Positions 4,320 through 63,590 of a stretch of 64,000 nt of DNA are shown piece by piece. The DNA lies in NCBI GenBank assembly GCA_961205875.1, contig OY540810.1:15252001-15316000 (forward strand), given 5' to 3'. Numbering within the stretch: position 1 is the stretch's first letter; the number at the start of each line of letters is the position of its first letter. Made by a program: the position numbers and the translations under genes. This DNA is from Sialis fuliginosa. Its lineage: Eukaryota > Arthropoda > Insecta > Megaloptera > Sialidae. The notes under the pieces are model-generated. The model did no database searches. It saw only the letters and a program-made list of their open reading frames with translations, and was not told the DNA's origin.

Positions 4320-4843
4320 CAAGGTATATAAAGACAAGGTAGTCTCAACAATTCCTTGACCAATCAGCGTTGGCGCGGGAATTGACGTCACCTGGGGGAT
4401 CTATTCAAATGTCATAAATTTTTAATAGAATATTAATTACAAAAAAATCCTTTATTTATTCTTGTTTTCGTATTTTTTGATATTTTTACAACACATACAA
4501 TCAAATAAGTACAAATTCGACATTGTAAAATTATAAAAAAGCTGTCAAAGACAATTTGGTCAATTCGGGAAGCATCATTTTTACTATTCTTAAGTTGGCA
4601 ATACGTTATATGATTCTGACAGCACTTTATGATTTTGCTATGTCGAATTTGTACTTATTTGATTGTATGTGTTGTTAAAATATCAAAAAATACGAAAACA
4701 AGAATAAATAAAGGAATTTTTTGTAATTAATATTCTATTAAAAATTTATGACATTTGAATATATCCCCCAGGTGACGTCAATTCCCGCGCCAACGCTGAT
4801 TGGTCAAGGAATTGTTGAGACTACCTTGTCTTTATATACCTTG
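4320..4843. mobile_element. Non-autonomous foldback / Mutator-like element
   Basis: The element is almost entirely inverted repeat. The left arm 4320-4523 and right arm 4640-4843 are each about 204 bp and differ by eye at only about three positions; the spacer is about 116 bp. The ends read CAAGGTATATAAAGAC. It is flanked by the 9-bp duplication ACATCAACC, and the paralogous site near 11.87 kb lacks it, so both boundaries are firm. There is no transposase frame, so mobility would depend on a partner. Each arm holds a TGACGTCA (4383-4390 and 4773-4780), a CCAATCAG box and a TATATAAA box close to the tip. Long arms plus a 9-bp duplication fit Mutator-like or Drosophila-Foldback-type elements; which one is inference. 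Near-identical arms suggest recent insertion. Confidence 0.85.
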
Positions 4844-8686: not shown

Positions 8687-9028
8687 CTAAAAGAGCTTAT
8701 CTCGCTTCAATGATTCTGAGCAATCAACTGTAAGGTCTAGAAGGACTGAAGCTGGGATAGGTCCAATACCACTACTAAAAATCCTAGTCTTATCTCTCAA
8801 GATTTCTAAGCTTTCTGCTGCGTCCAATTGATTATTATTACTGCATGTTTTAATTAGTTTAAAATTATTTATATCTGTTGTATGATTTAATGTAGTCATA
8901 TGATGAGCTACGCTGGATTTATCAACCCGGTTGTATTTTAGGTGAGCCATGTGCTCTTTAAATCTAATGTTTATTGATCTCCTAGTTTGTCCTATGTAAC
9001 TTTTGTTGCAATTTAAGCAGTTTTTTTT
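8687..9028 (-). pseudogene. GIY-YIG endonuclease domain of a Penelope-like element (truncated)
   Basis: The minus-strand frame begins inside the element at the A/T tract near 9028 and stops after RDKLF at 8687-8689. It carries NCLNCNKSYIGQTRRS followed by the arginine and FKEH block, then SSVAHHM and LDAAESLEI. These are the Cys-x2-Cys, YIGQT, R..R..EH and LDA.ESLEI landmarks of the Penelope GIY-YIG endonuclease, which nicks target DNA for reverse transcription. The first GIY half and all of the reverse transcriptase are lost, so this is a dead 3' fragment. The frame itself is uninterrupted, suggesting fairly recent insertion. An internal ATG at 8950 is not the true start. Confidence 0.85.
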
Positions 9029-9033
9029 TGTTA

Positions 9034-9080
9034 GGCTCCTGATGAGGACTTCTTGTGAAGTCGAAACACGTGTCGAGTGA
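9034..9080 (+). ncRNA. Second hammerhead ribozyme motif, inverted arm
   Basis: The plus strand reads CTGATGA at 9039-9045, one G, a stem (9047-9052 with 9057-9062), loop TTGT, GAAA at 9063-9066, CACGTG, and the predicted cleavage after C9074. It is antisense to the element's coding direction and matches the 8596-8640 copy except for the purine after CTGATGA. Transcription through both arms would give RNA with two complementary ribozyme arms. Confidence 0.7.
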
Positions 9081-9124
9081 CATTTTTTTATTGTGGTTAA
9101 GGTGTATATTTTTAGTTTAAGTGA

Positions 9125-9764
9125 GTATTATATTATATTTAATAATGTATATTGACAAATTCGAAGGATTTTTTAACCCATACCTTCCCATAGGTGAACC
9201 ACGGACAACACATACCTGAATATAATTACTTTGTAATTGGAGAAGGTCCCTGTAAAACAATCTAACTGAAAAACATGATACGATACACTCTTGCATATCA
9301 AAGGTATTAACACAAGTGTATCTTTGATGTTTAATCCTGTTATATGCAGTCTAACACCTTCAGTTTTACAAGAATATGCATACATGACTGTCCTTTAGCG
9401 GAGAAAGAGCAACCTACGCTACAATATCGTATTCTCTCCATGTAGGAACGTGCAGTAAGGATTATTTACTAAAATGCACATTACAACACATAGAAAACAA
9501 AGAATATTAGTAGGAATATATTATATTATCTTTGTTTGACAAAAATATACGATGCACTAGAAAGCCTTTGAAGTATTTAAACTCTGCTTCAGACTATTGC
9601 CTTATGACAGTGATTATAAAGTTGTGGTTAGCAAAGGTCTTCTCCACTTACATGGGTTAAATGAAGAGTCAAGTGAAAAAGGTTGGGTATTAAAAGTTTT
9701 TTTTCCAGCAAATAGATACTTCCAAAATACATTGTTCGAATGAAAATGTATTTTTACCAAATAA
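9125..9764. other. AT-rich stretch without recognised feature
   Basis: The minus-strand frame at 9173-9385 has no motif and typical AT-rich composition. No repeat boundary is visible. Confidence 0.35.
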
Positions 9765-35420: not shown

Positions 35421-35520
35421 TTTTAGTTTCATTCAGTGTTAGAGCGAAACTTTGTTGTGGATTGTTATAAGGAGATTACTTGTATTTAGATTGTTATTTG
35501 TTTACACCGCGTGCTCATAA

Positions 35521-36020
35521 AATTAAATTTATTTCAATTGGATAACTTTTGAAATATATTGGTCGCCATATTGTATCCGCCATTTTGAATTTTTATAATA
35601 AAATTGAAATCAGCGTCCCAATAAAACCTTATAAAATGAATTTTATTAAAATCGGATAACTTTTGAAATATCTTGGCCGCCATATTATATCCGCCATTTT
35701 AAATTTTTATAAAAAATTTGAAATCAGTGTCCTAATAAAACCTTATAAAATGAATTTTATTTAAATCGGATAACTTTTGAAATATATTGGTCGCCATATT
35801 GAATCCGCCATTTTGAATTTTTAAATTTTTATAAAAAATTTGAAATCAGTGTTCCAATAGAACCTTATAAAATGAATTTTATTTAAATCGGACAACTTTT
35901 GAAATATATTAGTCGCCATATTAGTTCCGCCATTTTGAATTTTTGAATTTTTATTAAAAATTTGAAATCAGCGTCCCAAAAAACCCTTATAAAATGAATT
36001 TTAATTAAATCGGATAACTT
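35521..36020. repeat. Minisatellite, 114/122-bp period
   Basis: The word GGATAACTTTTGAAATAT starts at 35540, 35654, 35768, 35890 and 36012 (variants), giving periods of 114, 114, 122 and 122. The longer units gained eight bases by a duplication of the TTTTTAAA/TTTTTGAA type after CGCCATTTTGAA. Each unit contains GCCATATT-TCCGCCATTTT, AAATCAG(C/T)GT and CCTTATAAAATGAATTTTA. The unit is noncoding. Confidence 0.9.
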
Positions 36021-36062
36021 CTGGACTTTTGGCCATAGAACAGGGTCTCCTGGCCCATAGTG

Positions 36063-51240: not shown

Positions 51241-53281
51241 AAACACTAGATGTAATTCACGTCATAAATACAAGATATAAATTACTCGTTTTTTACATTC
51301 GTTGTAAATCATCCTGTATATCGAAGCTAGAGTTTATGATGGTTGGCTACCGAAACTAAAATACAATCAACAAATTAATTGAAGAATCAAAGTATGTAGG
51401 TACTCAGAAAAAAATGGTCAGTAATTAAAGCTCTGTAATTGTAAGAAAAATTGATGTACAGGAATAATTAAATAAACATTTTAAATTTCCAAATATAATT
51501 TTATATGTGAAATTTTAATTAAAAAAAATCATATTTTTGCAATTTTGAATAGGGTTAAACAATTTTTTTAGGAAAATATATGTAATGCAAAAGCGTATAC
51601 TTTCAGCTTCAAACTAATTTAAAGAAAATTGATGGCTTTTTTCTACAAAGTTATTTAACATTTAAGCAAAATTATCATTTTGACTTTGTCGCTTGAAAAG
51701 GGTAACTAACGCACCATTAAAAATACATAGTGCAAAGGTTGAAATTGAGTTTATTGATTAGTTTAGAAAATAAATTTTAAAGACATTTTTCTACTTAAAA
51801 TAAACCAATAAATTTCGCAAAGAGTATTGTTACTTTATTTCAAAATAAATTCTACAATTCTAATTTTTTTAAATTTCTTCTATTCCGTTTTATTTTTCAG
51901 TGAATTAAAATAAAATTTTGATTACTATACATAGGCTCATATAATGAGACAACATATTTGATTGAGAAATCATAAAATATTTAAATTGTTTAAAAAAATG
52001 AACTTTTACGAATTATCACACAAATTAAATTATTTACTTTCATGTTCCGAAGGAAATGGAAGAATTGTAAATACAGTCGAAAATTGGTGTCCAAGATAAG
52101 AGCATATTCTGATTGTACTGATTGCATGGCGGATGTGCGTGTGTTGTCTAGATGTAGAGTTTTCTTTCGTTCATGATAAATGAAAATGTTTGTCGCAGTG
52201 AGTACTTCAGACCTTTTGATTTTTGTTGCTAATCGAATAAAGGTGTTTGGAAATATTCCCCCCTCCCTAAAAAAATTAAATTAAAATAAATTAAATAATA
52301 CAATTAATTTTTTTGGGGGTGTATATGGATCATACTCCCCTTACCCTCTCCCAAAAAACTTATCAAATTAATACAAATTAATATTAAAAAAAATGTTTGT
52401 GGGATCTATGATCAATATACCCCTTTCTCAAAAAAGCGAAAAAATAAAGAAAATAAAATTTATAATCAAATTTTTCACATTAATTAAAAATATTATTGAA
52501 CATAGAAGTCATGTATGGTTCTCCATACCGAAATTTCTCTGTGCCGTACCAAATAAGTTATAAAACTTTAGATATAATTTTAAATAACATTTTTATTATT
52601 TTTATAAACTGTTCAGAACTACTGGTTTCAGAGAACTGAAAGCAATAGAATGTGTAGTATATAAAACGCATGTACGCGATGGAATCCCGTATTTATCCAC
52701 GTTAACAAAACGTGATGTGATAACTATTGAGAAAAAAAGAATAAAAAAAATCGAGGTAATTTTTTTTATGCTTGTGTATTTTCTCCGTGTTAATTGTAAA
52801 GTGGATCTACAATAAATAATAACTGAATGGTGCTATGCATTTGTTTTGCACATTAAAATGATCCATGAAAAACGTTCTTTTTTAAATCTGAAAATATATT
52901 TTATACAGTTTATGAAGTAATTGACATAATGCGTGTAGAAGATAGAGTTGACGCGCGATACCGCCCGCGTTTTATATAAAAAATCATCTAAAGCGACTTA
53001 AATAATAAAGTTAGATAAACACTATAAGGGACTTTTTAGTAGAGCTAATTGAACTCTACAAAACGTCAATATATAATTTTGCTGTATCTTTTACAGTTTA
53101 TGGGTAAAATGTTTTTTTTTTTAAATTATGCAGCTGTTATTGCATGATAGCGTAATTACATGTACTTTATAAGATTTGTGAGATTTCAAGGAACACCTTG
53201 ATGCAGGTTTAATCAAAATTGACAAATTCATCCAAGTCAGTGATTTTACCAAAATTGAGATTATATTATATTATACATAAG
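51241..53281. other. Region between the inverted arms, first part
   Basis: AT-rich without a credible frame. Bases 52250-52440 hold two to three diverged direct repeats of a unit of about 70-100 bp with CTCCC-AAAAAA-TTA and GGGGGTGTATATGGATCATA words. GACGCGCGATACCGCCCGCG at 52950-52972 is a small GC island. Confidence 0.35.
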
Positions 53282-53527: not shown

Positions 53528-54149
53528 TTTTAAATACCGGATATTAGATTAGAATTTAAGAGTTAACATTTTTTTTAATATACACTTTATAGAAATGAAT
53601 ACAGAAATAAGTACTAGGACATAGGAAATGTAACGCACGAATTTTAAAGAATAGAATAAAGAAAAATCAATATGTATGATTATCACATAGGATCAGTTTT
53701 ATTACATCGCGCGGAAAGAGAGAGAGAGACGGAGAGGCAATAGAAGGATTCGTACGTCAGACAATGACGGACGTATTTGTATTGTGTGCTATTTTTGTAA
53801 TAATATCGTAGAAAAGAGCTGAAGCCGAGCTTTTCATAGAACAATAAATGAAATAGAAAGCTTCGTTTGAGAAACTGTAGGAGTATTGTCTATTTGGGAG
53901 TGTGGGGAGAAGGAGGAGGGGATAAATAAATCAAATATCTCATCGGCGTTATTTTATTTTATTGCAAGGGAACTTGAATAAAACATAATTTTATAGTTTC
54001 AAACAATTTATATTTATTTTAAGATCTGAGTGAATGGTACGTCGTTGTCTTTACGGAGCACATTTTTGGGGAGAACATTCGTAACAATGCGTTTTTGATC
54101 ACAGTTACGTATATTGAGCTATGTGGCTTGTTACACTAGTAGAAACGTT
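53528..54149. other. Unassigned; small purine-rich and CG-containing patch
   Basis: An (ag)n tract lies at 53718-53732, followed by GGATTCGTACGTCAGACAATGACGGACG. No open frame or repeat copy is recognised. Confidence 0.3.
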
Positions 54150-54429
54150 GACTTGGGCCAATAAATCCTTATTTTATAAAGGGTATCAAAATTTCAGGTT
54201 AACTTTTAAAATCGTAATAAAACAAATAAATTACTTTGAACGTCTAAATGTTTTTATTTAAAATAAAAGTGGAGACATTGAAGTTGAGTAATCCAAAATA
54301 ATATTCGATAAGTAACCTCTTCTAGCTGCTCTGGATGCCTCCAATCTTTTGTTAAAAACTTTAGTACAATTGCGACTCATTTGCAGTCATTTCATTGAAA
54401 TGTTCACCTTATGGTCATTAATGGTTTGT

Positions 54430-54560
54430 GGATCATAAGCGTAGACTTTTTTATTTAAATAATACCCAAAAAAAATCTAGAAGCGTTAGAACACATGATC
54501 TCTGCGGCAAATTAACATCTTGTTGAGAAATTATTCGATTGTCAATACGCTTACGTAAAA
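54430..54560 (-). pseudogene. Mariner-type transposase C-terminus, left arm of copy 1
   Basis: The minus strand gives LINLPQRSCVLTLLDFFW then a VYAYDPQTINDHK-like segment, corresponding to WPPRSCDLTPLDFFLWG...VYA.. of the family. It is an inverted, diverged duplicate of the right arm and is non-functional. Confidence 0.6.
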
Positions 54561-54654
54561 ATGATAATATCGTAGATGTTGATAAAGAATGTTCAAAACG
54601 TTAATGCCTTTTAATTAATCTCATAAAAAATTGTAATAGAATAATTTCTGGACG

Positions 54655-54960
54655 AGGGGATGTTAATTGACCACTGAGTTCATGTTATCTAAAGATTCTG
54701 GATTTCATTCTTTGGGGTTAATTTCGAGGGTTATTTAAAGGAAGAGGCCTACGCTAATGATTCACAAAGCATTAACGACCTGAAGGAGAACATTTATAAA
54801 GAAATTACTACAAATAAGCTGCAGTAATGCCAAAAATAATATCGAAAATTTTAACAAAAGATTGAAGATACACGGAACAGTTAGAGATGGCTACTTATCG
54901 GATATATTCAACTTCAATGTCTCCACTTTAATTTTAAATAAAAATATTTTAACATTCAAA
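54655..54960 (+). pseudogene. Mariner-type transposase C-terminus, right arm of copy 1
   Basis: Reading across stops, the order is (L)ID...DFILWG-like, GYLKEEAYANDSQSINDLKE, NIYKEITTNKLQ, CQK, YRKF and DGYLSDIFNFN. This follows the C-terminal third of IS630/Tc1/mariner-type transposases, whose signature is PPRSCDLTPLDFFLWGYLKE...VY. Several in-frame stops and frame shifts make it non-functional. The N-terminal helix-turn-helix and first catalytic aspartates are absent. Confidence 0.65.
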
Positions 54961-55014
54961 GTTATTATGTATTTTATTACGATTTTAAAAGTTAACTTGA
55001 AATTTTGACACCAG

Positions 55015-55145
55015 ATATATAACGAACACAATATTTTCTTAATATAAGAAATATACTCTTAAAGGAACTATATTATTTTTAGACGAAAATACAGTGCGGT
55101 TAAGAATATATTTCATATATTAAGAAAATATTGTTTTTGTTATAT
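55015..55145. repeat. Palindromic segment (ATATAACGAACACAATATTTTC)
   Basis: ATATATAACGAACACAATAT then TTTCTTAATATAAGAAATAT is inverted after about 45 bases as ATTTCATATATTAAGAAAAT then ATTGTTTTTGTTATATAT. The single-arm version occurs at 62240-62280, so this palindrome is the nested tip region of the foldback element. Confidence 0.6.
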
Positions 55146-55173
55146 ATACACTAAATATTTTTTGGCCCAACTC

Positions 55174-55290
55174 AATTTTTGCGTATGAATCCATAAACTT
55201 GTGGGCCGTGTAATTGTGCCTTTATATAATTTAAATTACAATACGTTAAACGTACATTCAGTGGCGAGAGTTTTTTTTAATGATGTATTA
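55174..55290. repeat. Flank shared with copy 2 of the foldback element
   Basis: CCATAAACTTGTGGGCCGTG, ATTGTGCCTTTATATAATTT and ACATTCAGTGGCGAGAG match the inverse of 62110-62215. The duplicated unit is thus larger than the foldback element itself. Confidence 0.65.
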
Positions 55291-55734: not shown

Positions 55735-56320
55735 TGACGTGTTTTAAGTCAGCCAAATACTGAATAACTCAGAAACTAAAAGCTCGACTAGGGTGATTTC
55801 GGTATCATTCTAACCGGCGTATAGTTCCGTATCCATTAAATACTGAGCTAACTCCGCGGAAATGCGGTACGGGTGGTGAAAGATTTTTTTGCGCGCTAGC
55901 GTAAATTTAATATCAGTATAGCTCGACACTCAGAGCAGCTAGCATGTTGGTTTTGATTCCAAATTATAGATCTGGATTAGAACTACGAGATACAAGTACA
56001 TATCAAAACATTTAATCCGTTTTAATGAGTGAAAAACTTAATAAAATAAAAAAAGTACATTTTCAGAATGTCGGCTAAAACACGCGTAAAGCCAGCATAA
56101 AATATTAGACATAGAGCATTGGAAAGATCGTCTCAGCATCTTTTAGAAAATATACCATTACCAGTAACTGAGCGAATTAGGAGGTGCAAGGCACGCAAGC
56201 CCATCATGAGCTTGAGTTATATTTAACCTCACTGCCACAAACGATGCGACTTTAGATTTGGAACGCATTAACGTCAATCTCTCGACTGTGCATCCCGACA
56301 CAGTCACACCCAATTTTTTC
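55735..56320. repeat. Long inverted arm, right
   Basis: Reverse complement of 50630-51240, running from AACTCAGAAACTAAAAGCTC through CCGCGGAAATGCGGTACGGG, GCGCGCTAGCGTAAATTTAA and AACACGCGTAAAGCCAGC to CTCGACTGTGCATCCCGACA. It includes GATTAGAACTACGAGATAC and GAGCAGCTAGCATGTTGG, which also occur in the copy at 61040-61110. Confidence 0.65.
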
Positions 56321-57050: not shown

Positions 57051-59008
57051 AATTAAATTTCCATAAAAGAGATCATTACAATTTTTGTAGTTAATATTCT
57101 GTTACTAAAATATATCTTCTGTCTGCTTCATGGATTGGATCATGATATTCCTATGTATTTTTGCCCGTTGATCTGAACTCTGTTTAAGCCCTACACATCT
57201 GGATTTTTTACAAAACTTTTATTAACTTGATCTGTAACTAACATTGAAAGAAAATCTTACAACTCACTTTTCACCCATATTTAACTGTTTTATTGATTTT
57301 GAAAAAGCAAAAGTAAAAAACTAAAAAGTAAATTAGAATACAAAAACAACTTTTCAATTTTTAAGAATATTTTAGCCTATAGGATTAAATTTCAAAAATA
57401 TACCACCCATTTCCCCCCCAGTTAGTTGAAACATAAAAAAATACTTTATTAAATTAATAATATTGCATAATTTGTAATAAAAAAACCGGAATACGGATTG
57501 TAAAGTTCGTAATAACTAAAAGTATTTTTATTTATATTTCCCAGTATATTTTAATTATTGATATACATTCTGGCCAACTATAAATTAAATATAATTAAGA
57601 GTTATGTATCTAATTAAAATAGTTAACAATGTTCTGGCTTACTTTTTAATTCCGCCGAAAGCATTTCGGATATTTAACTTTATTTATTCCATAAAATATG
57701 TAAACTTTCAAATTACGAATTTACGAAAAAGTAACTAAATATCATATATACATATTCGCTTGTACTAAATAAAACAACAGTGGTGAGAACATGAAATCGT
57801 AGGGGTGAAAAATGTTCTCTATGATTTTATAATTGATTAAATTTTATTGAAGTCCATGTTGTTAAAATAACTTTTTTTTTTACTATTTTGACCTATATCT
57901 ACTACAAGATTTTGAAATACAATAAAAACGGGGTGTTCAAATAGAACATTACGATTTTTTATTACGAAAAGTAAGCTGCTTACAGAAATAAAAATCAGAC
58001 AAAAGTTACTATGTTTGGGGGAGAGGTGGAGGATATCGTGATAATTTATATTTGTAGGTTTTTTGTTATGTTTTTGTATCGTACACGAGTATTGTTATTT
58101 AAAATAAATAAACTTTCAGAAAATGTATAACTGAAAAATTTTGGTTTGAAATCACATGTTTTGGACAAAAGTTTATTGTTTTCACTTATTGTTAGAATAA
58201 AATCCTTTTAACAAAAATATAAGTTCAATTAAAAATTACCAATATATTGCCACCATGTATGTCGAAACTTGATAATTTTTGTCTGAAGCAGTTTACTGTT
58301 CGAAATATAAAATTCGGAACATTTTATTTTAAAATTCAAAAATTTTGTACGAAACAAATTTTGATTAGAAATTTTACTGGGGGTAAATATCAATTTCAAT
58401 TAGAGAAGGGGGATTTTCAGCTTCTACCCTAATTCTGATAATGAACAGTATAAATTACTGCCAATTTATTTTTAGATTATAAAAGAATGAAATATATTCA
58501 CGATTATAATTTATTTTTGATATAACTAATTGTTATTAATGTCCCAATATGAATATTGATGTATGCAAATCCAAACGTATATATTATATAATATTTGCGA
58601 TATGCGTTCATATTCAAGAAAATCGATACGTAATTACAATACATAATTATATACTTAAAACAAAAATTAAGTGTATATAATAAATACTTATATATATAAC
58701 GTTTTAATAACTAAAAAAAATAAGAATTATAAATCACAAATATTTCAGTTTTTGCGAATTTTCCATGAGTGCATAAATAAAAAAAATATTTTTAATCTAA
58801 AACTTTGTACTATCATTTAAAAGCGCGATTTCAACATGAAACTAATTTTTTTTAGATTTGATTTTCGACACTTTTCCACAGAGATATTTGAGATTAAGTA
58901 AAAATCATCAGGTTTTGCTTAGTATCAAAGAACTTCTTAAAAAATCGCGAGGTCAAATATAAAAAATCATTTTGAAGCTAAAGACAAATTATTTAACCTC
59001 ATGCACCT
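57051..59008. other. Long AT-rich stretch with nothing recognised
   Basis: The plus frame at 58247-58432 has AT-rich-type composition and no motif. No inverted-repeat pair, island or repeat copy was found over about 2 kb. Confidence 0.4.
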
Positions 59009-60930: not shown

Positions 60931-61140
60931 TAGAGTTTCAGGCCAGATACTGGATGGGCATTTCAAAAACTTGATGCAACGCGCAGAGATCAATTTTGTA
61001 CGCTAGCGTAAATTTAAAATCAGTGTAGTATATATATCTCGACATTCAGAGCAGCTATGATGTGGGTTTTGGTCTCAAATTATAGATCTCGATTAGATCT
61101 ACGAGATAAAAGTAAAAATCAAAACATTTAACCAGTTTAA
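60931..61140. repeat. Third copy of the long-arm repeat (partial)
   Basis: TTTGTACGCTAGCGTAAATT, TCGACATTCAGAGCAGC, TTATAGATCTCGATTAG and AACATTTAACCAGTTTAAAT match 55890-56035 directly. Confidence 0.65.
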
Positions 61141-62000
61141 ATGAGTGATAAGCACAGGATCCTTTTTGTAGGAAATTTTATTTTCTATAATATGCTACTG
61201 TAAGAAATCAAAATAATTAAATTTTGTGCCGTTCACAGGTTTGATCTACGAGTCTGAAATTTTGAGACAATTAACTTTTGATCCAAAGCTAAAAGATAGG
61301 CCAATGGGACCGAAAAAATAAATAAAAAAACACCCTAATAGATGTACCTACTACACATTTCTCTTATAAATTTAAGTTTTTGTCGCATACGACATTTCAG
61401 CGGTCAGGGTTCGATTATTGGTATATAATAAAATTCGATAAAGAAAATGAAGTAATCTTTATATTGAAATATACCGTTATAATGATTTATTAAACCCAGA
61501 GAAAACATAACCGAAGAGATACGATCGTATACAAACACCACAAAGTACTTTATTTTACGCATACAGACATCAAGCATTTTACGGCGTTATTTGTTGAAAT
61601 GCAGACGCGTATATTCTAAAAACTTGCCAGAAATATTGTGATTGAAAAACTAAAAAAATAAGATATCTCCATTTGACATGTCTCCGACTAAATTTACGAA
61701 TAAAACGGATAGTTCATAAAATACGTTCCCCGATGAAAAATTCGTTTAAAATTTGAAAATTGAATGTCGCAGCGATGGTTCCAATATCGTCGAAAAAGCA
61801 CCTCTGGGAAACAATTCTTGGAGGTTATATTGAATTGAAGTACTTTTGTGGGACGGACGCATTTGACCGAAAAGGTTCAACACATTTATATATAAATTAG
61901 ACCAATGCAGTTACATATGTGGGGTGTCGTGTGTTTATAAATATTATGCTTGTTTATCAAGACAGTGCCGGGTTAAGACATTTTTTTACCGTTACTCTGT
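61141..62000. other. Unassigned; ordinary complexity in places
   Basis: Bases 61480-61900 have mixed composition (AACCGAAGAGATACGATCG, GGTTCCAATATCGTCG) with no open frame and no copy in the window. It could be single-copy DNA. Confidence 0.3.
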
Positions 62001-62023: not shown

Positions 62024-62284
62024 TATTAGCAGGTAGGTGTTTTATAGAAAGTTAAAATTTCAAGTTAACTATATAAACTCTGTAATAAAACCCATAAGTT
62101 ACTTTGAATATTCTCTAGCCACTGAATGTATGTTTAACGAATTTAATTTAAATTATATAAAGGCACAATAACACGGCCCACAAGTTTATGGACTCATACA
62201 CAAGTAAAAAATTGACTTGGGTCAAGAAATCTTTGGTTAATATATAACGAAAACAATATTTTCTTAATATAAGAAATAAATTTT
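62024..62284. repeat. Mariner-type tip plus flank shared with 55174-55290
   Basis: Bases 62040-62105 (AATTTCAAGTTAACTATATA, GTAATAAAACCCATAAGTTA) are another short mariner-type tip of the same family. Bases 62110-62280 are the inverse of the copy-1 right flank. Confidence 0.6.
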
Positions 62285-63085
62285 AAAATCGTAATAAAAC
62301 ATATAAATTACTTTGAATGTTCAAATGTTTTTATTTAAAATGAAAATGGAGACATTGAAGTTGAATATAATCAAAAACTACCTCTGTGTGCCTCTAATTT
62401 TTTGTTAAAATTTTCGATAGTATTTTTGGCATTACTGCGGCTCATTTGCAGTAATTTCATTATAAATGTTCCCCTTTATGTCATTGATGGTTTATGGTTC
62501 ATTAGCGTAGGATTTTTCCATTAAATAACCCCCAAAATTAACCCCAAAGAATGAAATCCAGAGGCGTTAGATCACATGATCTCAGCGGTCAATTAATATA
62601 TCCACTCGTCCAGAAATTATTTGATTACAAACTTTTTATGGGGTGAATTGAAAGGTATGAACGTTTAGAACATTCGATATCAACCAGATGGTGCCACACT
62701 CCATATACATCTAACGATACAATCGATCTGATAATTGAATAATTTCTCGACGAGATGTTAATTTGCCGCCAAGATGATGTGTTCTAACGCCTTTGGATTT
62801 TTTTCTTTGGAGTTATTTGAAGAAAAAAGCCTATACTAATAATCATTGAACCATGAATGACCCTAAGGACATTTAAATGAAATAACTGCAAATGAGTCAA
62901 AGTAATACCAAAATATTACCGAAATTTTTAACAAAATTAGAAGAGGACAATTTAGAGCAGGTTACTTATCAACTTCAATGTCTTTACTTTCATTTTAAAT
63001 AAAAACATTTAACAATCAAATAAATTTATGTATTTTATTACGAATTTAAAAGTCAACTTGAAATTTTGACACCTTCATAAAAACA
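62285..63085. mobile_element. Foldback mariner-type element, copy 2
   Basis: The structure matches copy 1 but inverted. Arms run from AAATCGTAATAAAACATATA at the left to TTTTATTACGAATTTAAAAG then TCAACTTGAAATTTTGACAC at the right. The centre (about 62625-62745) aligns with the reverse complement of the copy-1 centre: GAAATTATTTGATTACAAAC, TGAATTGAAAGGTATGAACG, AGAACATTCGATATCAACC. Both arms encode broken mariner-type transposase C-termini; this copy also retains QPDGATLH-like and TIQSI words upstream. The left tip is deleted. Confidence 0.7.
62680..62960 (+). pseudogene. Mariner-type transposase fragment, right arm of copy 2
   Basis: The plus strand reads YQPDGATLHIHLTIQSI, then INLPPR-like, LTPLDFFLWSYLK-like (interrupted) and a VYTN-type segment. 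FQ.DGA..H is the region around the second catalytic Asp and PPRS.DLTPLDFFLW precedes the third acidic residue in IS630/mariner-type transposases. Frames are broken; it is non-functional. Confidence 0.6.
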
Positions 63086-63590
63086 AATGTGGCGTTCTAT
63101 TCAGCAATTAAATGGACAAGCGAATGCGTCAACTAAGTGACAGATAGTGCAATAATGATTCTTAATTTTTATTCTTAATTATTAAAGGTAATATTATGTT
63201 GAATGTATTTTTTGTTTGAGTACGCCTATGAACTTGTCAAGTTCGGTTTTCCTTTCTCTGCCGCACTGTTTTTATTTGGTGAGACGGATAATAACTCTTA
63301 AAGTTTATGGATTAAATGGTCCACCCGCTCATTTTGATTTATTTATTCACTGCTTAGCTGTTTTGAATGATAGCGTGATTTTATGTATCCTATAGCACTT
63401 CTTAGATCTCAAGAAACATGTGGTAAAAGTTTAATCGAAATCGGTCAAGTAGTTTTCAAAATTACGAATATAGATAGATAATACGAGTATATATTAAAGT
63501 TAAATTTTAAGAAATCACAATAGACGTGTACATTTATTTTAACTCTCAAGAGATGTACTTTCGCGGCTCTCCCGATCCAGGCGCACTTGG
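63086..63590. other. Unassigned AT-rich stretch
   Basis: GATAGCGTGATTTTATGTAC-like and GGTCAAGTAG words near 63370-63460 recur loosely at 53145-53220 (GATAGCGTAATTACATGTAC, TTTGTGAGATTTCAAGGAAC, GGTTTAATC). The two intervals are probably copies of one old repeat. No gene. Confidence 0.35.

Follow-up and report, generated by a model that had tools for sequence, protein, structure and literature searches.

Tc4 and Tc6 are foldback elements, and relatives of Tc1/mariner in general use TA as their target. Palindromic mariner derivatives are common, and their origin is seldom readable. Palindromic elements are on record in C. elegans, in D. melanogaster and among the mariner elements of A. gambiae (PMC3212995, excerpt), and the same excerpt cites Dreyfus and Emmons 1991 for a transposon-related palindrome in C. 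elegans. Two old, dead, non-autonomous palindromic Tc1/mariner derivatives of this already known kind are present in the window, the 64-kb stretch of DNA analysed in this study. As far as the excerpted descriptions go, they resemble the C. elegans palindrome and Tc4/Tc6 in being non-coding, near-palindromic and made of transposon sequence. They differ in that their arms read as the 3′ portion of a transposase gene, with the extra length of one arm as the loop. The inner junction, the one-arm loop and a clean insertion into a second element, M2, give the relative order of events here.

The end AAGGGTGTC... of the aphid element rosa DD41D resembles the end AAGGGTATC... found in this study (PMC5490172, excerpt). 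When AAGGGTATCAAAATTTC and AAGGGTGTCTCAAAAAGAACG were compared by eye for the rosa end, 8 of the first 9 bases were alike. Insertion at TA and the occurrence of MITEs (349-578 bp in rosa) are further likenesses in the same excerpt. The rosa MITEs are internal deletions that keep both original ends, whereas both ends of the present elements copy one end. The Bari1 variant of D. rhopaloa is a Tc1-mariner element whose two ends have also become identical and long, but it is putatively autonomous and has an intact gene between its ends (PMC4877112, excerpt). Galileo and Foldback of Drosophila likewise have very long inverted repeats with little between them, but belong to the P superfamily by their transposase (PMC4168063, PMC3573991, excerpts).

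For Mos1 and Mboumar-9, two identical preferred ends were the most efficient in vitro (PMC4505599, excerpt), which gives a reason why a 3′-3′ form could be favoured. A natural 3′-3′ element that was copied after it had formed would be the fossil counterpart of that result; the bearing on wider questions is modest. The same 3′-3′ mariner form with a one-arm loop was not found in a limited literature search, mostly of titles and the beginnings of abstracts, and we claim no absence.

Structure of the two foldbacks

The two foldbacks lie approximately 7 kb apart in inverted orientation. Copy 1 (54179-55015) is complete according to its self-inverted alignment, the flanking TA and the restored empty site. 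It starts with AAGGGTATC... and finishes with ...GACACCAGA. The four-arm alignment and the translations showed that its left arm (54179-54541, sense on the reverse strand) comprises what reads as the 3′ part of a transposase gene, a 3′ untranslated stretch and the outer end. The centre (54542-54633, reverse strand) is followed by the right arm (54634-55015, forward strand), which has the same 3′ part and outer end in the opposite orientation and is identical to the left arm at 277 of 351 aligned positions. Copy 2 (62277-63075), delimited by its alignment to copy 1, has partly lost its outer right end. The four-arm alignment divided it into a right arm (62277-62627, reverse strand) with a truncated outer end, a centre (62628-62733, forward strand) that reads as the upstream part of the left arm, and the left arm with its outer end (62734-63075, forward strand).

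The alignment of copy 1 with its own reverse complement (54182-55012) showed 69.9% identity over 884 columns (E = 3e-105), and that of copy 2 (62281-63051) showed 70.9%. Copy 1 (54172-54994) aligned with the reverse complement of copy 2 (63082-62277) at 76.8% (E = 5e-173), so that the left arm of either, in window order, corresponds to the right arm of the other. The full pairwise alignment was identical at 773 of 948 positions. A reading made earlier from the sequence only had described two opposite foldback copies with inverted arms, the left arm of one matching the right arm of the other, and these alignments confirmed it in both respects. The G+C content of the window is 29.5%, which might suggest chance palindromes in AT-rich DNA. 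This explanation is negligible, being excluded by the E-values of 3e-105 and 5e-173 and by the shuffles of the centre and the junction given below (0 of 1000 for each). No third foldback was found within the 64-kb window, where only a solo end occurs in addition (62047-62112). The foldbacks have no coding gene; the window has no ORF of at least 150 codons, and the arms are near-completely inverted.

The centre of copy 1 alone (54542-54633) aligned with the reverse complement of 62628-62733 with a score of 60, which was reached by 0 of 1000 shuffles (maximum 25). On the wrong strand the score was 12, and 977 of 1000 shuffles scored at least as high. Across the junction (54596-54648 with the reverse complement of 62612-62668), the score was 56, and 0 of 1000 shuffles scored as much. 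The two centres had been said to align when that of copy 1 is read on the reverse strand, and the head-to-head duplication to have happened once; the first statement was borne out by the centre scores and the second agrees with the junction common to both copies. Since the inner junction is the same, the foldback arose once, before the copies separated, and the sequence comparison supports a single foldback event that preceded the separation.

From AATAATTTCT outward, each arm reads RIISxxDVNLPxRSCxLTPLDFFLWGYLKxKxY... (with frame breaks), followed by an unreadable stretch and then by GTTAACTTGAAATTTTGACACC in the four-arm alignment. This internal order is the same in both arms of both copies, so both ends go back to the 3′ region of a single gene. 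The earlier proposal that the arms are the 3′ part of one gene agrees with this order and with the translations, with weak evidence for a transposase, and the like ends fit its description of a non-autonomous form with both ends from the same 3′ terminus.

Among the 295 gap-free sites of the four-arm alignment, 10 joined right arm with right arm and left arm with left arm, 3 grouped the arms by copy and 2 were crossed. Extra bases, a tandem-like GGGGTTAATTTtGgGGGTTATTT stretch, were present in both right arms and absent from both left arms, and one base present in both right arms was missing from both left arms. This site pattern, together with the common indels and the common junction, supports one foldback event before the separation. 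The left arms were 76% identical between the copies, and the left and right arms within each copy were 79% and 77% identical. As these values are about the same, identity alone cannot order the events.

The end pattern (at most 3 mismatches) was found at 54182, 54991 and 63052, with 0 matches expected in 100 shuffles, and terminal inverted repeats are present. The last three bases of the right end of copy 1 (AGA) are unlike the left end. TTTTATA or TTTTATG precedes three outer ends (54172-54178 at the left end of copy 1, 62040-62046 at the solo end and 63076-63082 at the left end of copy 2), and the right end of copy 1 has neither. This heptamer may belong to the end itself or reflect a preferred target.

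The centre of copy 2 on the left-arm strand translates as FLWGELKGMNV*NIRYQPDGATLH. In the Tc1/mariner superfamily, DGAxxHT surrounds the second catalytic D. Because the centre reads on with the left arm, the left arm is approximately 100 nt longer than the right arm, and the loop is that excess. Such a one-arm loop would be the shape expected from a foldback template switch. It is very improbable that the arms are instead ordinary ends with native long terminal inverted repeats (LTIR-like) and no duplication of the 3′ end. Elements of this type with repeats of approximately 460 bp, and their derivatives of 411-822 bp, are known in aphids, but the end AAGGGTATC is rosa-like and unlike both LTIR ends listed in that source (PMC5490172, excerpt). 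The reading of the arms as transposase C-terminal sequence, and of the centre as further coding sequence of one arm, also stands against native repeats.

Relation to Tc1/mariner transposases

Pfam and NCBIfam searches detected no transposase. A hand-typed consensus of the arms matched the Sleeping Beauty transposase in a PDB search with an E-value of 1.9e-4, which is flattered because the residues were chosen among the arms; 85 of its 89 letters occur in some arm at the aligned column. The typed consensus scored 90 against the matched Sleeping Beauty segment. Random picks from the arm columns averaged 34 with a maximum of 69, and 122 of 1000 such picks exceeded every shuffle. When the four joined arm readings, made of observed residues, were compared with the same segment, 4, 21, 0 and 2 of 1000 shuffles scored at least as high. 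Four of the five PDB searches, with the joined left arm of copy 2, one raw stretch, a mechanical majority consensus and a four-row profile, returned nothing relevant.

Copy 1 is flanked by a TA target duplication (54177-54178 on the left and 55016-55017 on the right) and has a gapless empty site. Copy 2 has CA outside one end, and its insertion point on the other side is lost. The weak transposase match, the TA duplication and the rosa-like end make it likely that the foldback belongs to Tc1/mariner. The candidate catalytic codons of copy 2, GAT 62687 and GAT 62796, are 109 nt apart, or approximately 35 residues with one frame break. In rosa DD41D, 41 residues lie between the second and third catalytic D. 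Small deletions between the candidate D codons of copy 2 are likely. Searches for relatives with the typed arm consensus gave 23 pattern matches in viral contigs and 181 in prokaryote contigs, none of which was confirmed. The 42-base end pattern had 0 matches among viral contigs, and the motif LTPLDFFLWG had no match in the literature searched.

Insertion of copy 1 into M2

The host element M2 is palindromic, with 60-nt inverted arms (55015-55074 and 55088-55147) at 87% identity. The outer part of its left end (54132-54178, forward strand) is cut by the foldback; it matches 62197-62242 and, inverted, 55145-55175, with 0 of 2000 shuffles in each of the two comparisons. The rest of M2 (55018-55195, forward strand, outer boundary approximate) contains the inner left end, the middle and the right end, and was recognised by its inverted arms and by alignment with the M2 of copy 2. 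There, the match of 55018-55063 (62243-62287) directly adjoins the match of 54132-54178 (62197-62242).

Excision of 54179-55017, that is, the foldback and one TA, restores the M2 end in register. The Smith-Waterman score of the joined M2 pieces against the M2 end of copy 2 was 109 (42 from the left piece and 67 from the right piece), and against the other, inverted right M2 end of copy 1 it was 102 (32 and 70). The joined scores are the sums of their parts, which indicates a gapless join at the empty site. Of 2842 random pieces of the window, none scored above 26 against the left piece. In copy 1 the foldback was inserted precisely, at a TA within one end of M2, and the M2 ends have TATATA at the insertion site.

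The limits first given for copy 1, 54150-55173, overran the mariner part (54179-55015, with TA on each side) into the palindromic M2; they correspond to an inverted pair inside M2 (54143-54178 and 55145-55180). Positions 54150 and 55173 are ruled out as element ends by the sequence outside 55173, which is also present in copy 2, and by the gapless M2 end left after removal of 54179-55017.

Origin of copy 2

On one side, the homology between the copies reaches beyond the foldback, to 55270 in copy 1 and 62113 in copy 2, at 87% identity over 55100-55270 and 62286-62113. The M2 remnant of copy 2 (62187-62281, reverse strand) is identical to 55105-55195 at 78 of 90 aligned positions. The outer flank (55196-55270, forward strand) is identical to the reverse complement of 62113-62186, its counterpart in copy 2 (reverse strand), at 70 of 74. 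On the other side, the homology ends approximately 7 bp outside the foldback end of copy 2, where M2 should go on. Relative to copy 1, copy 2 lacks approximately 115 bp comprising its right end and, in M2, the middle and the inner part of the left end. The sequence-only reading, which was silent on the homology beyond the foldback, had assumed that the foldback alone was copied as a unit; this assumption is not supported, since copy 2 also has the M2 remainder and the flank that is identical at 70 of 74 positions.

That reading had also named one large segmental duplication as the account that would count against independent transposition. A large segmental duplication was rejected, as the flanks are not collinear beyond 55270 and 62113 or beyond approximately 7 bp outside the other end (beyond copy 2 the window extends for another 918 bp). 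The best matches between the flanks (55887-56035 with 60994-61151, E = 3e-41; 53132-53219 with 63356-63441, E = 1e-8) have both partners on one strand, the wrong orientation for an inverted duplication, and are dispersed repeats. The reverse strand gave one weak match (57499-57559 with 58765-58706, E = 8e-4), which lies approximately 1.1 kb out of place. Because copy 2 has the M2 remainder and approximately 75 bp of common outer flank, the simplest reading is that both copies descend from one nested locus that was duplicated, with a later deletion in copy 2. Two separate mariner insertions are not supported.

On the whole, we consider it reasonably probable that the copies are two fossils of the same non-autonomous Tc1/mariner-type palindrome, which had a 3′ end on each side, and that they passed through five steps. 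While an autonomous element was being copied or a gap in it repaired, a strand would have run inward from the 3′ end, folded back approximately 100 nt further in and copied itself outward. This would have given stems of approximately 350 bp and a loop formed by the extra length of one arm. The junction common to both copies shows that the foldback formed only once, before they separated. At copy 1 it sits at a TA in one M2 end, with TA on each side and M2 in register as after cut-and-paste insertion. The foldback form was probably already present at this third step, though an ordinary insertion into M2 could instead have been converted to a foldback on the spot. As the fourth step of the favoured five-step history, copy 2 would come from the same nested locus, because it keeps the half of M2 next to the foldback together with the outer flank, and would then have lost approximately 115 bp (the right end and the middle of M2). 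Lastly, two ends of the preferred type may have been favoured by a mariner-like transposase supplied in trans.

The identity between the copies is uneven, with 76% in the left arm and loop, 85% in the right arm, 87% in M2 and 95% in the outer flank. This counts against the favoured history, because one duplication should give one value unless gene conversion acted, and the gradient points to either gene conversion or a mixed history. It is a serious possibility, although short of probable, that repair synthesis made a short local inverted duplication of approximately 1.1 kb, which gene conversion later partly homogenised, with no transposition between the copies. Such a duplication would suit the distance of approximately 7 kb, the inverted orientation, the non-mariner flank common to both copies and the climb of identity from the left arm to the outer flank. 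It does not account for boundaries that lie approximately 7 bp outside a transposon end on one side and beside a solo transposon end on the other, and the flanks have no other collinear inverted homology (918 bp beyond copy 2 in the window). The solo mariner-type end (62047-62112, forward strand), recognised in the four-arm alignment, faces outward and directly adjoins the common flank, with TA at 62045-62046; its part 62051-62112 matches 55009-54951 inverted (E = 9e-11). This end could make 62047-63075 a composite unit, and a mariner-type transposase might then have moved copy 2 by the ends at 63075 and 62047, carrying half of M2 and the flank. We regard such a composite move as rather doubtful. 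It would explain why the homology to copy 1 breaks off no more than approximately 7 bp from the foldback end instead of going on through M2, and why a solo end lies at the other limit; TA stands outside 62047 and CA, possibly a decayed TA, outside 63075. However, copy 1 has no solo end after its common flank, the TA is lost on one side, and the neighbouring solo end may have nothing to do with copy 2.

It is unlikely, a little more so than the composite move, that the foldback entered two different copies of M2 in separate insertions. The insertion point is deleted in copy 2, which leaves some room for an independent insertion into another M2. The TATATA in the M2 ends would have aided such insertions, and the left arms are as diverged between the copies as the arms within a copy. 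The flank 55196-55270, apparently beyond the M2 palindrome, is nevertheless common to both copies at 95%, and M2 is absent from the other side of copy 2. We speculate, as a distinctly improbable extension, that the loci record the replacement of the 5′ end by the preferred 3′ end through snap-back, followed by mobilisation that included a composite move with foreign DNA. If so, snap-back and mobilisation would be the two stages in which a mariner turns itself into a more successful parasite, and the composite move would have recruited an old neighbouring end, carrying half of M2 and the flank.

Three further features were observed in the window. An open frame of 146 aa with NCNKSYIGQTRRSINIRFKEH (8687-9127, reverse strand) matched no Pfam family at E 0.1, and looks like a Penelope-type GIY-YIG end. 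At 35469-36062, a unit of 114-122 nt is present five times in tandem, with 66-100% identity to the reference copy. A much younger foldback (4320-4843) has 218-nt arms that are 97% complementary, with 88 nt between them. A 9-bp direct repeat, ACATCAACC, borders it at either end, and a duplication of this length suggests a Mutator-like element.
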